The notes beneath the pieces were generated by a model that had not been told where the DNA came from, did not search any database, and worked only from the letters and a program-made list of their open reading frames with translations. This document shows positions 11,118 through 36,332 of a DNA stretch of 38,070 nt, one piece after another (within the stretch, counting starts at the first letter, position 1; each line of letters begins with the position of its first letter). The DNA is from Clostridiales bacterium (GTDB lineage Bacteria > Bacillota > Clostridia > Lutisporales > Lutisporaceae): the NCBI GenBank assembly GCA_012521375.1, contig JAAYMO010000234.1, positions 1 to 38,070 on the forward strand, written 5' to 3'. The translations under genes and the position numbers were made by a program.

Positions 11118-12137
11118 TTATTTTTCTTTTTCAGTTTCATCTCCATCTATAACATTGATAAATATTCTCTTCGATATTCCACCATTTACAGGCTTTATAT
11201 ATATATATTCATTACCTGAATTTCCTGCATAAAGATGCTTTATATCATTATTTAATCTAACTAGACTACTTTCCCTATCCCAACTTAATAAAAGCTTAGA
11301 ATCTGATATTTCAATAGGCACACTCTCATCTCCAATAATGGCAATATGTTCTCCTTTATTCATATTAAGTTTTTCTAAAGGTAATGTAATATTTCCCCAT
11401 TTATCAGATTGATAAGGTATATAATAAGTAACAATTTTACTCATATCTTGATCATCATTTTTTTCAACATAGTTATTAGGAACAAGGCGTGTTTCTTTTA
11501 TAGCTCCGTCGACTACTTCAATCTTTCCGCCTGCTACATAGTTTTGTTCAAAGTAAGTTAAAAATCTATTATCTTTGTAGCTTATTATTCTATAATGGAT
11601 ATATTTCCCCTCATCATTTTTCGATGAAATTATTATTATTGAAGATCTATTTTCAGGGAAGCCAATAATATGGACAGGAAGTGGTCTGCTACTGTTTTCA
11701 AACATGCTGCTATATACCATCTCAAAATCACCATTATTTATCGGACTCCATATTACTGCTAATAAATTGTTATCTTTTTGATAGGGCTTATTAATTTTGA
11801 AAAAATGAAGCCATTGATATATATTTTCTTCCTCAAACTTTAACATTTGTTGTGATACAGGCTCACCCATGGATACCATTTTATCTCTCACAAAACTATT
11901 TTTATTGTATTTATAAATAGCACCAATTAAAAACAACAAGAAGCATATACCTAATACAGAATATTTTAAACATAATTTATAATTGAGAGATTTAATAGGT
12001 ATTGGTTTTCTTCCCTTTTCCAAATTATAATGTACATCCTTGTTGAAATTTGCATAAGGGAAGCTAGAAAAAAATTTATTAGCATCTTTTTTGGCTCGTA
12101 AAAGGAGTTTTTCCATATCATCTTTATCTTTTCTCAT
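11118..12137 (-). CDS. Membrane partner (putative anti-sigma factor) of the ECF sigma factor
   Basis: A 339-residue single-pass protein: a basic cytoplasmic N-terminus of about 55 residues, one hydrophobic helix (LCLKYSVLGICFLLFLIGAI, about 55-74), then a large extracytoplasmic domain of about 260 residues. Its ATG overlaps the stop of the sigma gene by four bases (ATGA), so the two are translationally coupled. This position and topology are those of an anti-sigma factor. However, I see no zinc-binding HxxxCxxC of the common ZAS domain and no RsgI-type sequence that I recognise. Function is therefore inferred from context. The external part (with LPVHIIGFPENRSS and KRIFINVIDGD) resembles no domain I can name. 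It is the last gene of the operon starting at 15773. Confidence 0.7.
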   Translation of the reverse strand: MRKDKDDMEKLLLRAKKDANKFFSSFPYANFNKDVHYNLEKGRKPIPIKSLNYKLCLKYSVLGICFLLFLIGAIYKYNKNSFVRDKMVSMGEPVSQQMLKFEEENIYQWLHFFKINKPYQKDNNLLAVIWSPINNGDFEMVYSSMFENSSRPLPVHIIGFPENRSSIIIISSKNDEGKYIHYRIISYKDNRFLTYFEQNYVAGGKIEVVDGAIKETRLVPNNYVEKNDDQDMSKIVTYYIPYQSDKWGNITLPLEKLNMNKGEHIAIIGDESVPIEISDSKLLLSWDRESSLVRLNNDIKHLYAGNSGNEYIYIKPVNGGISKRIFINVIDGDETEKEK

Positions 12138-12676
12138 ATATTCTCCTCCTTAGATATAAGCTTTCTCAGCTTTTCTCTCCCCCTATGCAAACGAACTTTT
12201 ACATTGCTTTCACTAATTCTTAAAATATCTGCTATTTCTGCAACAGTAAAATCCTCAAAATAATAAAGGCTTATAGGAAGCCTGTATTTTCTTGGAAGAT
12301 CCATCACAAACCTGAATATCTGGCTTCCTTCTACCTCTTCCAACATTCTACTGGCTTCCCTTAAAGATTTATTATAATCATTCACAACACCGACTGTAAT
12401 AAACTTTCTAAAAGCTGCGGACTTAAGATAATCTTTGCATAAATTAGAAGTTATTCTGCATATCCATGTATAGTAACTGCATTCTCCTCTAAACTTATCT
12501 AAATTATAATATACTCTAATGAATACTTCTTGATAAATATCTTCCGCTTGATGTATATCTCTTAAATAGTAATAAGCAATCTTCATTACCTGGCTTCCAA
12601 ATCTTCGCATTAAATACTCCAGCTGTTCCTTCTTATTGTCGTAACTATTCCATTGCTTTTCAGCATATTCTTTCAT
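12134..12676 (-). CDS. ECF-type RNA polymerase sigma factor (sigma-70 family)
   Basis: A 180-residue sigma factor with only regions 2 and 4. Region 2 includes DIYQEVFIRVYYNLDKF and FRGECSYYTWICRITSN, binding core polymerase and the -10. Region 4 includes LPRKYRLPISLYYFEDFTVA followed by EIADILRISESNVKVRLHR, the helix-turn-helix for the -35. An ATG at 12682 would begin directly on the GGAGAG ribosome binding site. The ATG at 12676 is spaced six bases from it and is chosen. The gene follows the ABC permease by 37 bases and overlaps the putative anti-sigma gene by four. It probably directs transcription of its own operon or envelope genes, but I could not identify a repeated promoter motif that proves this. 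Confidence 0.92.
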   Translation of the reverse strand: MKEYAEKQWNSYDNKKEQLEYLMRRFGSQVMKIAYYYLRDIHQAEDIYQEVFIRVYYNLDKFRGECSYYTWICRITSNLCKDYLKSAAFRKFITVGVVNDYNKSLREASRMLEEVEGSQIFRFVMDLPRKYRLPISLYYFEDFTVAEIADILRISESNVKVRLHRGREKLRKLISKEENI

Positions 12677-12713
12677 ATTCATCTCTCCAGTATATCCACA
12701 TGTCTAGCTTATT

Positions 12714-31364: not shown

Positions 31365-32087
31365 CTAAAGTGGTTCAAAAAATCCTATCTGTCGCTTGCC
31401 CAATTTGAAGTATTGAACACGTTCAAAAGACTTGTGTTTTAACTTTGACTTTTTATCAGCTACTATAACTAATACAGACCTTTTTTTATCAAGTGCTTTG
31501 TAGCAATTCTCAAATAGATTTTCTAGTGGATTATTATTTCTTCCTTCCCAACTAACAATATTTCCATAGGGAATATCTGTAATAATAATATTCACATCTT
31601 TAATAGGAAAGTCTCTTATATCTGTAATATCTCTTTTCATACATCTTATCTCAATCTTCTTTGCTCCTATCAAGGTTTCCAAATAATCTATGCTTTTCAA
31701 TGCCTCCATATGAGATTCTTTTCCAAATTTTTTTATGTATTCTTCGATTTCTTTTTTTCTTTTATTAAGTCCTTCTTTTGAAAGCAAGGAAAGATTTTTC
31801 CTTGCGGTTTCTAGCACATAATCATCATAATCAGTTGCTATAAGTTCTAAAATTTTATCATAATGCAAAAACCCGATAGTTGTAAGCAAAAAACCTCCTC
31901 CGCAGCATGGATCATAAATTTTGTATGGACTATAAACTCCCTTTTTTTCAAGAATATCAAAACATCGCTGAGCTATCTCGCTTGCCAACCTGACAGGAAA
32001 AGCCGTTGTATTTGCAGCATTATATAACACTCGCCCGCTTGAAAAATCACTGAAATCTCTTTTATCCGTTTCAAATTTATACTTCAT
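31365..32087 (-). CDS. AviRa-like 23S rRNA methyltransferase
   Basis: A 240-residue SAM-dependent methyltransferase resembling AviRa, the 23S rRNA guanine methylase that protects the avilamycin producer. Matching features in order are FSSGRVLYNAANTTAFPVRL, ASEIAQRCFDIL, the SAM loop YDPCCGGGFLLTTIGFLH, acidic ATDYD, the helix ARKNLSLLSKEGL, and the catalytic ITDIPYGNIVSWEGR. The NPPY-type site appears as DIPYG. Whether it confers orthosomycin resistance or is a housekeeping modifier in Firmicutes is not known. No strong ribosome binding site precedes the ATG at 32087. It appears to stand alone, upstream of the dgt operon. Confidence 0.78.
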   Translation of the reverse strand: MKYKFETDKRDFSDFSSGRVLYNAANTTAFPVRLASEIAQRCFDILEKKGVYSPYKIYDPCCGGGFLLTTIGFLHYDKILELIATDYDDYVLETARKNLSLLSKEGLNKRKKEIEEYIKKFGKESHMEALKSIDYLETLIGAKKIEIRCMKRDITDIRDFPIKDVNIIITDIPYGNIVSWEGRNNNPLENLFENCYKALDKKRSVLVIVADKKSKLKHKSFERVQYFKLGKRQIGFFEPL

Positions 32088-32937: not shown

Positions 32938-33663
32938 CTATACCCCCATTAAAGAAAATAATATCATAAGTGAAAATATGGGAAATGCTGTTGCTAAGGG
33001 TACAGTAATTGTATCCATTCCGTTACGGGATACTAGTTCAACTATTGCACATATTGGTGCAACAAGGAAGGCTCCTGATAAGCATAAATACCAAGGCATT
33101 GAGGTATAAATCATAAGGCAGATAAGTATTGCAATAGCAGATACGAAATACATAGCAATTGTTCCTTCCCTAGTTTTAGTTCCTTCTACCCATCGATGAT
33201 TAATAGGATGGCGGCCAAAGGCTTTTCCAACCAGAGCCGCTGCTGCATCTCCAAAACCCCAGGCCATAACTGAAACAATAACAATAAACTTCCATTGCTC
33301 TCCCATCAATCCCCAAAATATAGCAATAAGCACTGCCATCATAAAGAAAACAATTAATAAACTTAATTTTATCTCGCCTTTTTTACGTTGAATCAGTATC
33401 TCCATTACCTTAGGAAATCTTTCAGTATAAGCTATTACCGGATACAAAACTAAGGCAAACACTATGACCGTATACATTGCTAGATACCATGTATCGAAGG
33501 CATATAGAAGCACCAACACCGATGAAACACACGTCATATGGAGAAGTTTTCTAAATAGCTCTTTTGGAGGCTTTAAATATGCTCTAATTATTAAAAGCAG
33601 TAAAACGGCAATTATATAATATCCAATAAAAAGCCCAAATCCAGACATAAACTCACTTAGCAT
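32938..33663 (-). CDS. Polyprenol/phytol kinase-like integral membrane protein (DGK1/SEC59/VTE5 family)
   Basis: A 241-residue protein with about seven hydrophobic helices. The family motifs are RKLLHM (residues about 38-43), the CTP-binding-type stretch GFGDAAAALVGKAFGRHPIN, then EGTKTREGTIAMY and the C-terminal ELVSRNGMDTITVPLATAFP. These are hallmarks of CTP-dependent lipid-alcohol kinases (dolichol, phytol or farnesol kinases) and related cytidylyltransferases. It probably phosphorylates a prenol or diacylglycerol in the membrane; the substrate is open. GGAGGAG precedes the ATG. The CDF-like gene follows after one base, suggesting a shared function. Confidence 0.8.
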   Translation of the reverse strand: MLSEFMSGFGLFIGYYIIAVLLLLIIRAYLKPPKELFRKLLHMTCVSSVLVLLYAFDTWYLAMYTVIVFALVLYPVIAYTERFPKVMEILIQRKKGEIKLSLLIVFFMMAVLIAIFWGLMGEQWKFIVIVSVMAWGFGDAAAALVGKAFGRHPINHRWVEGTKTREGTIAMYFVSAIAILICLMIYTSMPWYLCLSGAFLVAPICAIVELVSRNGMDTITVPLATAFPIFSLMILFSLMGV

Positions 33664-33820: not shown

Positions 33821-35899
33821 TCAATTTGCAGACATTTCAGTAATGCTCAATACGTAACCATCCTTTGTTTCTATTCTAAAGGGCACTTTAGCAGCATTAT
33901 CTGAATAAATGTTTAGATATCTAATAAATTCGTCTTTATCTTTAGTGCTGTAGAATCTGACTTCATCCATTCCAACAGAGTTATTTCCCCAATCAATGAA
34001 GTTATATTCTGTCTTCTCATTTACCAAGAAAGCAAGGTTATCCTCTCTAGGATTATAAATGTAGTATCCGTTAGGCATATCATAAGCTTTAATATCTAAC
34101 TCTTCTATCCTTTTAGTATCCTCCAAAGTTATCCATTCAATTGGGTCAAAGTGGAATAAATCAGGATGGGACACAGCAAAATTGGATATAAATCCAATAT
34201 ATGTACTAATTGGTGTTTGCAAAAAATCATCCACCGATACATTATAAATCAATTCAATCATTTCATCACTGGGCTGGCCTAGCGTTCCATGAATAAAATC
34301 GAGAGCAACATCCAATGGTTCCAAAAGCCATGGATGATGACCATTATCGCACTGTTTCTGTAATTCAGTGTAATAGTCAGCTAATGAGTTATCAACCTGT
34401 GGGTCATTATAATACACTGTTCCGTTACCATCCATCCATCTTTCCACACACCATATGCCCCGGCTACCTTTAGTTGCAGGCTGTGATAATAGAGCTTGAG
34501 CCGTTTCACCTGTAGAAAGCTTAAACTTTGCAATTACATGTTGTCCAGTAAAAAATTCCTGCGGAAGATACCCAGATAACTCCAAAAATTGCCTCAGTGC
34601 AATTTCCTGGCTCGATAACAAATCACCCATCTCACCGTTCCAAATTATACCTAAAAATTCTGGTTTTCCATCCTTATAGGAAAAAACCATAACAGGTTTG
34701 CCCATGCTGCTATCTTCAGTAATCCAGCCATCTACTTCATTCATTCCCCCTGCTAGCACAACGTTTTGGATGTTATCAGGCTTTAATCTGTATTCAATTG
34801 ACCATAACTCAATAGGATAGTTCATTAAATCATAAAACATAGCTAATTTATTAAGTGATGTTATCTTATACTCAACAACTTTAAAATTTTGATACTCAGC
34901 CTTTTCATAATTCTCAATAACCTGTTCTACATACCTATTTGCATAATCTTCTATTGTAAGTATTTCATTCTTTGGATTGGAAAGGAGGCCAAAAGAAAGA
35001 ACTGCAATGCCAATCACCGCTATAATTATAACCCAGAACACAGGCTTTTTGTAATTCATTACATTTTTGATACGGTTTTTGGTGTCGCCTTCACCAAAAG
35101 CAAGCGGATTTGCTTTTAAAGTTCTTCTTCCTGTGGTAAGTGACAAAAGAGATGATGAATATTCTTTTTTTACACCAACGCCCAGTTTTCTTATAACTGC
35201 CTCATCGCATGACATTTCCATATCCTTGCCACTTTCAAAATAGGCTATCCATACCAGAGGATTAAACCAATGGATACATAAAGCCAAATAACCAATTATT
35301 CTGAATACATGGTCAAATCTTCTAATATGTATTTGCTCATGAAGTAATATATATCCTTTTTCTGATTCCGATAATAACATTGGTAGATAAATCTTGGGGC
35401 GGATAATTCCAAGTACAAAGGGTGTATCTACCCCATTTAGAAGATATATATTATCCCTGTCGTATACTGCATTTTTAAGTTTTCTTTTCAACCTCAAGAG
35501 GTCTACTAGACTATATATTAAGAGCACCAAAACCCCAATCATCCACAGTGTCTCACCTATATTAATCCATATTTTCATTGGGTTTACACTTTCGTATATA
35601 GTCACCGCCGGAAGAGATGAATTAGTAAAATAATCAACATTTATTATTCCTGTATTAACTTGGGAAGCACGGGTATACAGAATATCATAAGATATAGGCT
35701 CCGGATTAACAGGAATAAAGCTTAGCATGCTTTCAAAAGAAATCGGAAGTAAGAGTCTGAATAATGCCACAGCCCATAGGCAATAAGAAAAGATTGTTGG
35801 AGCTTTCTTCAAAAAAAGCCTTGCTGCCAGCACAAACAGTATGACTACACTTCCAATGTAACTCATATTGAGAATCTGTAAAAAGAGCCTTTCCAACAT
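33821..35899 (-). CDS. M56 family metallopeptidase sensor, BlaR1/MecR1-like
   Basis: A 692-residue membrane sensor-protease. The N-terminal 300 residues carry four transmembrane helices and the M56 zinc protease motif HEQIH (187-191), then CDEAVIRKLGV with the third ligand region. The helix PVFWVIIIAVIGIAVLSFGL (about 283-302) leads to an extracytoplasmic part of about 390 residues. In classic BlaR1 that part is a penicillin-binding transpeptidase domain with SxxK. I see no such motif here, so the signal is probably not a beta-lactam. Its start is two bases from the stop of the BlaI-like repressor. By analogy, sensing activates the protease and removes the repressor from DNA. Induction is autoregulated through the operators at 36291-36332. 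Confidence 0.88.
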   Translation of the reverse strand: MLERLFLQILNMSYIGSVVILFVLAARLFLKKAPTIFSYCLWAVALFRLLLPISFESMLSFIPVNPEPISYDILYTRASQVNTGIINVDYFTNSSLPAVTIYESVNPMKIWINIGETLWMIGVLVLLIYSLVDLLRLKRKLKNAVYDRDNIYLLNGVDTPFVLGIIRPKIYLPMLLSESEKGYILLHEQIHIRRFDHVFRIIGYLALCIHWFNPLVWIAYFESGKDMEMSCDEAVIRKLGVGVKKEYSSSLLSLTTGRRTLKANPLAFGEGDTKNRIKNVMNYKKPVFWVIIIAVIGIAVLSFGLLSNPKNEILTIEDYANRYVEQVIENYEKAEYQNFKVVEYKITSLNKLAMFYDLMNYPIELWSIEYRLKPDNIQNVVLAGGMNEVDGWITEDSSMGKPVMVFSYKDGKPEFLGIIWNGEMGDLLSSQEIALRQFLELSGYLPQEFFTGQHVIAKFKLSTGETAQALLSQPATKGSRGIWCVERWMDGNGTVYYNDPQVDNSLADYYTELQKQCDNGHHPWLLEPLDVALDFIHGTLGQPSDEMIELIYNVSVDDFLQTPISTYIGFISNFAVSHPDLFHFDPIEWITLEDTKRIEELDIKAYDMPNGYYIYNPREDNLAFLVNEKTEYNFIDWGNNSVGMDEVRFYSTKDKDEFIRYLNIYSDNAAKVPFRIETKDGYVLSITEMSAN

Positions 35900-35901
35900 A
35901 T

Positions 35902-36264
35902 CTAATCCTCCCTATATCCATCAATTAATTTTTGTATCTCCTGGACTTCCTTATCACTTAGCTTTTTATGGCGTGTAAAAGCTGCTATAAACCTTGGCAA
36001 TGAACCTTCAAAGGATTCCTCAAGAAACATCTCTCCTTGTAACGTCAAAAATTCATCTCTTGACATCAAAGAAATGACCGTTCCATTCTTATTCTTAAAT
36101 AAACCCCTATCGCAAAGCCGTCTAAGCATTGTATAAGTTGTTGTCCGTTTCCAATTAAACTCCTGAGCACACAGTTCAGTAAGCTCCCGGGATGTCACTG
36201 GTTCATGCTCCCAGATTAAATCAGCAAACTTTTGTTCCATTTCACCTAATTTATATTTTTTCAT
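35902..36264 (-). CDS. BlaI/MecI/CopY family transcriptional repressor
   Basis: A 120-residue dimeric winged-helix repressor. The N-terminus KLGEMEQKFADLIWEHEPVT and the recognition region TSRELTELC to TTTYTMLRRLCDRGL are typical. The C-terminal half (SLPRFIAAFTRHKKLSDKEV) is the dimerisation domain that relatives lose when cleaved. The frame extends to a GTG-like position at 36291, but AGGAGG lies nine bases before the ATG at 36264, which I use. It is followed after two bases by the M56 sensor gene. Two inverted repeats covering both promoter boxes upstream indicate self-repression. Confidence 0.92.
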   Translation of the reverse strand: MKKYKLGEMEQKFADLIWEHEPVTSRELTELCAQEFNWKRTTTYTMLRRLCDRGLFKNKNGTVISLMSRDEFLTLQGEMFLEESFEGSLPRFIAAFTRHKKLSDKEVQEIQKLIDGYRED

Positions 36265-36290
36265 AATTATGTACCTCCTGTCTACTGCCA

Positions 36291-36309
36291 TTAGACAACA
36301 ATAGTCTAA
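36291..36309. promoter_or_regulatory. BlaI-type operator 1
   Basis: TTAGAC and GTCTAA form a perfect inverted repeat around seven bases (TTAGACAACAATAGTCTAA). It covers the -10 box and the predicted transcription start of the repressor-sensor operon. It has the general GACA/TGTC-like half-site shape of BlaI/MecI/CopY operators. Confidence 0.7.
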
Positions 36310-36331
36310 CTCTATTAGACAAGCATGTCAA
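36303..36331 (-). promoter_or_regulatory. Promoter of the BlaI-BlaR1-like operon
   Basis: TTGACA (36326-36331) and TAGACT (36303-36308) are 17 bases apart on the minus strand, with the predicted start about 30 bases before the repressor ATG. Both boxes are embedded in the operator repeats, as expected for direct repression. Confidence 0.75.
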
Positions 36332-36332
36332 G
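36315..36332. promoter_or_regulatory. BlaI-type operator 2
   Basis: TTAGAC and GTCAAG are arranged as an inverted repeat around six bases, sharing the TTAGAC half-site with operator 1. It covers the -35 box. Its centre is about 23 bases from that of operator 1, a little over two helical turns, which would place both dimers on one face of the DNA. Confidence 0.6.

Follow-up and report, generated by a model that had tools for sequence, protein, structure and literature searches.

An undescribed three-module outer part and self-directed operators in a clostridial BlaI/M56 gene pair

What does a BlaI/M56 gene pair sense, and what does it control, when no penicillin-binding domain is recognized in the outer part of its protease? 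Such pairs tend to be taken as regulators of beta-lactam resistance, and the question is raised here by a pair from a Clostridiales bacterium (assembly GCA_012521375.1, contig JAAYMO010000234.1), of which a stretch of 38,070 nucleotides, hereafter the window, was analyzed (Table 1). Our reading, to which we assign a probability of roughly 0.7, is that of a switch of BlaR1 mechanism which senses something other than beta-lactams and mainly controls itself. New are its undescribed three-module sensor and the strongly self-directed distribution of its operators.

Table 1. Features of the blaI–M56 locus (positions in the window)
Feature	Position	Strand	Basis or remark
blaI–M56 system with two operators	33821-36332	-	
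M56 membrane protease gene, 692 aa	33821-35899	-	PF05569, 1.1e-55
M56 part, residues about 1-280	35063-35899	-	PF05569; HEQIH 187-191, D196, E228xxxD232, Y247
Last membrane helix, residues about 283-310	34970-35053	-	hydropathy; start points of L009/L010
Module A, residues about 305-423, NTF2-like by fold	34631-34987	-	structure model; weak fold matches
Module B, residues about 424-544, with GIWCVERWMDGNG	34268-34630	-	invariant columns; without known fold match
Module C, residues about 545-692	33824-34267	-	without known fold match
blaI, BlaI/MecI-family repressor, 120 aa	35902-36264	-	PF03965, 2.8e-24
Operator 2, GTCTAATGGCAGTAGAC	36280-36296	.	between -10 and ribosome-binding site
-10 box TAGACT, 17-bp spacer	36303-36308	-	overlaps right arm of operator 1
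Operator 1, GTCTAATAGAGTTAGAC, perfect 6-5-6 inverted repeat	36304-36320	.	over spacer and -10
-35 box TTGACA, blaI promoter	36326-36331	-	5 bp upstream of operator 1
241-aa membrane protein	32938-33663	-	no Pfam match above threshold

In this draft genome of 2.84 Mb (308 contigs, 97% complete), the two proteins of the locus are the only genome-wide matches to Penicillinase_R (PF03965) and Peptidase_M56 (PF05569), respectively. Their genes are co-directional and 2 bp apart, blaI standing first behind a promoter with two inverted repeats; the genes and coordinates of the original prediction are right, and the BlaI/BlaR1-type anatomy it proposed stands by the Pfam matches. BlaI scores 86 bits against a gathering score of 22.6 and contains an Ala-Phe pair which, in an alignment to the MecI and BlaI structures, falls on the Asn101-Phe102 cut site of S. 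aureus BlaI and the Asn-Phe site of MecI; x-Phe is found there in 24 of 24 relatives, as Ala-Phe in 23 and as Ser-Phe in the remaining one. The blaI open reading frame spans 35902-36291 and its first ATG (36291) falls within operator 2, but the true start is probably the ATG at 36264, with AGGAGG 9 nt upstream. The protease part is as standard as had been claimed: PF05569 covers residues 8-279 with 189 bits (gathering score 31), and the HExxH...ExxxD zinc site with its additional Asp and Tyr (H187-H191, D196, E228/D232, Y247) is present in all 23 relatives compared. In S. aureus BlaR1, zinc is bound or the active site shaped by His201, His205, Glu242, Asp210, Asp246 and Tyr261 (PMC9834060); H187, H191, E228, D196, D232 and Y247 match these by spacing. 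Ahead of the last membrane helix, a loop bears PLA-F268-GE, which is kept in most relatives, resembles the Ser-Phe autocleavage site and is probably cut likewise. By its anatomy, this pair of M56 and BlaI family members appears to work like BlaI/BlaR1.

The BlaI/BlaR1 and MecI/MecR1 systems of S. aureus and B. licheniformis share with our locus the gene pair, the M56 catalytic residues, the repressor family, the x-Phe cut site and the repeats in their own promoter. However, where these systems have a class-D-beta-lactamase-like sensor, we find three undescribed modules, A, B and C; the operator sequence differs as well, and no beta-lactamase or PBP2a gene lies nearby. The outer part of about 390 residues (305-692) matches no Pfam or NCBIfam family at a meaningful score, and NCBIfam blaR1_generic reaches 80 bits against a cut-off of 400, matching the M56 part alone. 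Folded from an alignment of 27 sequences drawn from 35 related loci, the outer part yields a model with a mean pLDDT of 86 and a pTM of 0.79. The search for a transpeptidase fold that the original prediction had suggested as a check brought up none with this model. Neither by family nor by fold was the penicillin-binding outer domain of BlaR1/MecR1 found, and in this respect the earlier description of the sensor domain as unfamiliar is upheld. The best fold matches of module A, all weak, are NTF2-like proteins (PARC6, VirB8-like, TraM). Modules B and C, which can be modelled without A at a pLDDT of 87, gave no significant match in sequence and fold searches of the PDB or in a viral fold library, and the outer part matched no plasmid or phage record. 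Its conservation is strongest at the motif GIWCVERWMDGNG of module B, which may be a binding site.

In other genomes, as detected by profile search, the modules occur separately: module A, which stands alone in L041 and L042, is present in lipoproteins and in other M56 proteins, module B has neither A nor C beside it in L036, L045 and L046, and module C either follows an M56 part (L104, L107) or stands alone in small putative lipoproteins (L100, L101, L103, L105, L106). The last five are clostridial and consist of module C only; the two of them scanned with Pfam matched no family. All three modules together, with A partial, form a single lipoprotein in L033, the sole such case. As the modules recur separately in other proteins, we regard the outer part as a mosaic of exchangeable envelope modules. 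Three undescribed domains, shared with small clostridial lipoproteins, come into view, and the ligands of modules A, B and C become a testable question. A variable outer domain behind M56, under the same paired operators, is likewise found in M56-DUF4825 proteins, both beside BlaI (L064) and without it (L144); DUF4825, however, is a named Pfam domain, whereas Pfam has no entry for A, B or C.

What is under the control of this switch? Inverted repeats in the own promoter are a trait of the BlaI/MecI family, and the predicted binding sites here are both present and conserved. In relatives, the promoters read TTGACA-N5-GTCTA-N7-TARAC-T, followed by the second repeat after 7-14 bp; as every operator measures the same 17 bp, but the distance from one repeat to the next ranges from 24 to 31 bp, the unit must be GTCTAA-N5-TTAGAC, which in our locus comes in two copies 24 bp apart, the one in operator 2 with one mismatch. 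The parse TTAGAC-N6/7-GTCTAA given earlier therefore describes the gap between two operators. Both promoter boxes had been thought to be covered; this holds for the -10, whereas the -35 is left free, and operator 2 lies over the likely transcript start. Nearly every relative in which the pair is clear shows the same TTGACA box at the same 5-bp distance from operator 1. The pair as such is found in 18 of 27 homologous upstream regions versus none of 54,000 base-shuffled copies, so that operators do occur in relatives, as the original prediction had asked to be checked, and self-regulation, which it called clear, is likely from the paired operators in the own promoter.

The operator type is already known. 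Using DAP-seq and EMSA, Hebdon and colleagues found that BlaI_0696 of C. thermocellum binds GTCTAT inverted repeats five bases apart, with two repeats per target, and that besides its own operon it has few targets (PMC8457756); two GTCTAN-N5-NTAGAC repeats of this type stand upstream of our blaI. The likeness to BlaI_0696 and BlaI_1845, drawn on operators and regulon, comprises the paired GTCTAT-N5-ATAGAC type operators, autoregulation and a very small regulon made up of sensor genes and one hypothetical protein; unlike there, we find a single target in this genome. This provides a clear operator rule by which further systems of the kind can be found. In a scan which demands both inverted repeats nearly exactly, and so misses weaker or single sites, the exact pair occurs once in the 2.84-Mb genome, at this operon, with none in the reversed control. 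The 15 genomes reached via related loci contain 14 pairs in 10 genomes, those at L002 and L004 included, and all of them front blaI. Among 392 genomes drawn from the class, there are 29 strict pairs in 24 genomes (none in the reversed control), 27 of which, with that of this window among them, lie ahead of a blaI-containing operon. The remaining two belong to one genome, which also has blaI-M56, and front an M56-DUF4825 gene without blaI (L144) and the gene of a 305-aa single-TM protein (L123). Counting once the two sites common to both genome sets, the total with this locus is 41 pairs; a blaI operon follows 39 of them, and the other two are those of L144 and L123, the single-TM protein of the latter having no protease. 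Other sites of this genome were not counted as operators, since they lie within the grpE and dnaG coding sequences (single sites, one mismatch) or within a long ORF (two mismatches). In genome G213 (L147, 1426-1692, minus strand), the pair is followed by an 88-aa putative lipoprotein, an 81-aa ORF and then blaI-M56; the small lipoprotein and ORF are possibly an output of that operon.

The output genes, previously given as unknown, can thus be narrowed down: here the pair stands only at this operon, and relatives add the M56 gene of L144 and the L123-type protein. As part of the switch model, and with the probability given for it as a whole, the direct regulon would be this operon, the only additions seen in relatives being other genes of the sensor family. 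We picture the switch as follows. BlaI dimers would occupy the two operators over the -10 and the start, shutting off their own promoter; an envelope signal on the A-B-C outer part would activate the inward-facing M56 zinc protease, which would then cut BlaI at Ala-Phe and end repression. The main product after derepression would be more BlaI and more of the M56/A-B-C protein.

Could this product itself be the purpose of induction? There is some slight chance that the outer A-B-C part is both sensor and induced effector: as a surface domain, it would bind or neutralise some compound that acts on the envelope. If so, the switch raises its own receptor, in some genomes the same domain freed from the protease, and we would be looking at a self-contained resistance system whose sensor is the antidote. 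The cases behind this idea are L010 (a membrane helix with A-B-C), L123 (a TM-anchored outer protein) and the A-B-C lipoprotein L033. L010 is collinear with L006 save for the missing blaI and protease part: promoter, ribosome-binding site and the two operator positions, of which the second carries one mismatch, directly precede the last membrane helix, with which the detached outer proteins of L009 and L010 begin, and A-B-C; the reading frame starts from TTG, and the outer-part dN/dS against L006 is 0.16. A free, operator-controlled outer domain therefore exists, and it could be either an effector or a step in decay. L123 has only its membrane helix in common with an M56 protein of its genome, so its outer part is not A-B-C. 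L009, L031 and L034 contain protease remnants and look like decay; together with L007 they were dropped as evidence for free effectors on account of decayed M56 remnants, L010 and L033 being retained.

Somewhat less probable still is a diverged sensor of beta-lactams or cell-wall damage, the outer part of which would recognise beta-lactams, PBPs or fragments of peptidoglycan in a BlaR1-like manner. It would share transducer, repressor and envelope location with BlaR1, a beta-lactam or a piece of cell wall may still bind non-covalently to the predicted new fold, and the C. thermocellum BlaI regulons, composed of sensors and one hypothetical protein, were taken by their authors as a beta-lactam response (PMC8457756). 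Weak full-length fold matches to PBP2a are also found, but at a probability of about 0.05, and no transpeptidase family matches. The original prediction had seen no SxxK-type site, which does not hold for strings: the outer part does contain them, and 23 of 27 relatives keep the SMGK of residues 398-401. In the predicted model, however, SMGK sits in a loop joining two strands of module A, and the position reads SMGR or SMGS in other module-A proteins; on the structure model and the poor conservation beyond this group, it was dismissed as an active-site serine motif. Moreover, none of the tested window ORFs is a beta-lactamase or transpeptidase gene, in agreement with the original prediction; the exact-pair search of the genome, which misses weaker sites, brought up no other pair; and no beta-lactamase or PBP gene is the first gene behind any examined paired operator. 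Since the sensor differs and paired operators are found only at sensor-family genes, the default beta-lactam reading is doubtful for this group, and the system is very probably not a beta-lactam sensor. A different envelope signal had been proposed, and the switch model likewise assumes an envelope signal.

We see an equally small chance that the output consists of the 241-aa membrane protein and a CDF-like transporter, co-transcribed with blaI-M56. The 241-aa gene follows on the same strand after a 157-bp gap in which no terminator was detected, so that read-through is possible, and envelope-related functions are plausible; we take the protein to resemble the dolichol/phytol kinase (SEC59/DGK1/VTE5) group. 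Yet the 241-aa, CDF and dgt genes also form one group in the congeners G019 and G021, in which no M56 outer part was found, and this makes the 241-aa and CDF genes an improbable output; the closest relative, L002 (outer part 81% identical), has other genes behind M56 and relatives share no conserved follower. The downstream genes were therefore set aside as main output on synteny, and the self-directed switch looks inserted beside a stable cluster. That the system is a decaying relic without present function, as truncated or frameshifted copies in L003, L009, L024, L029, L031 and L034 might suggest, is highly improbable for this locus, where neither the two genes nor the promoter and operators show damage, no catalytic residue has been lost and the outer part evolves at a dN/dS of 0.11 (against L002) and 0.10 (against L004).

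Two further loci of the window deserve mention. A homologue of the 23S rRNA methyltransferase AviRa (31365-32087, minus strand; PF11599, 8e-90) is missing from the stretch that separates the CDF gene from dgt in G019 and G021, and is a second apparent insertion into that cluster. At 12137-12682 (minus strand), an ECF-type sigma factor gene, a separate candidate for responding to envelope signals, has as neighbours an ABC transporter and a 339-aa gene that matches nothing in Pfam.
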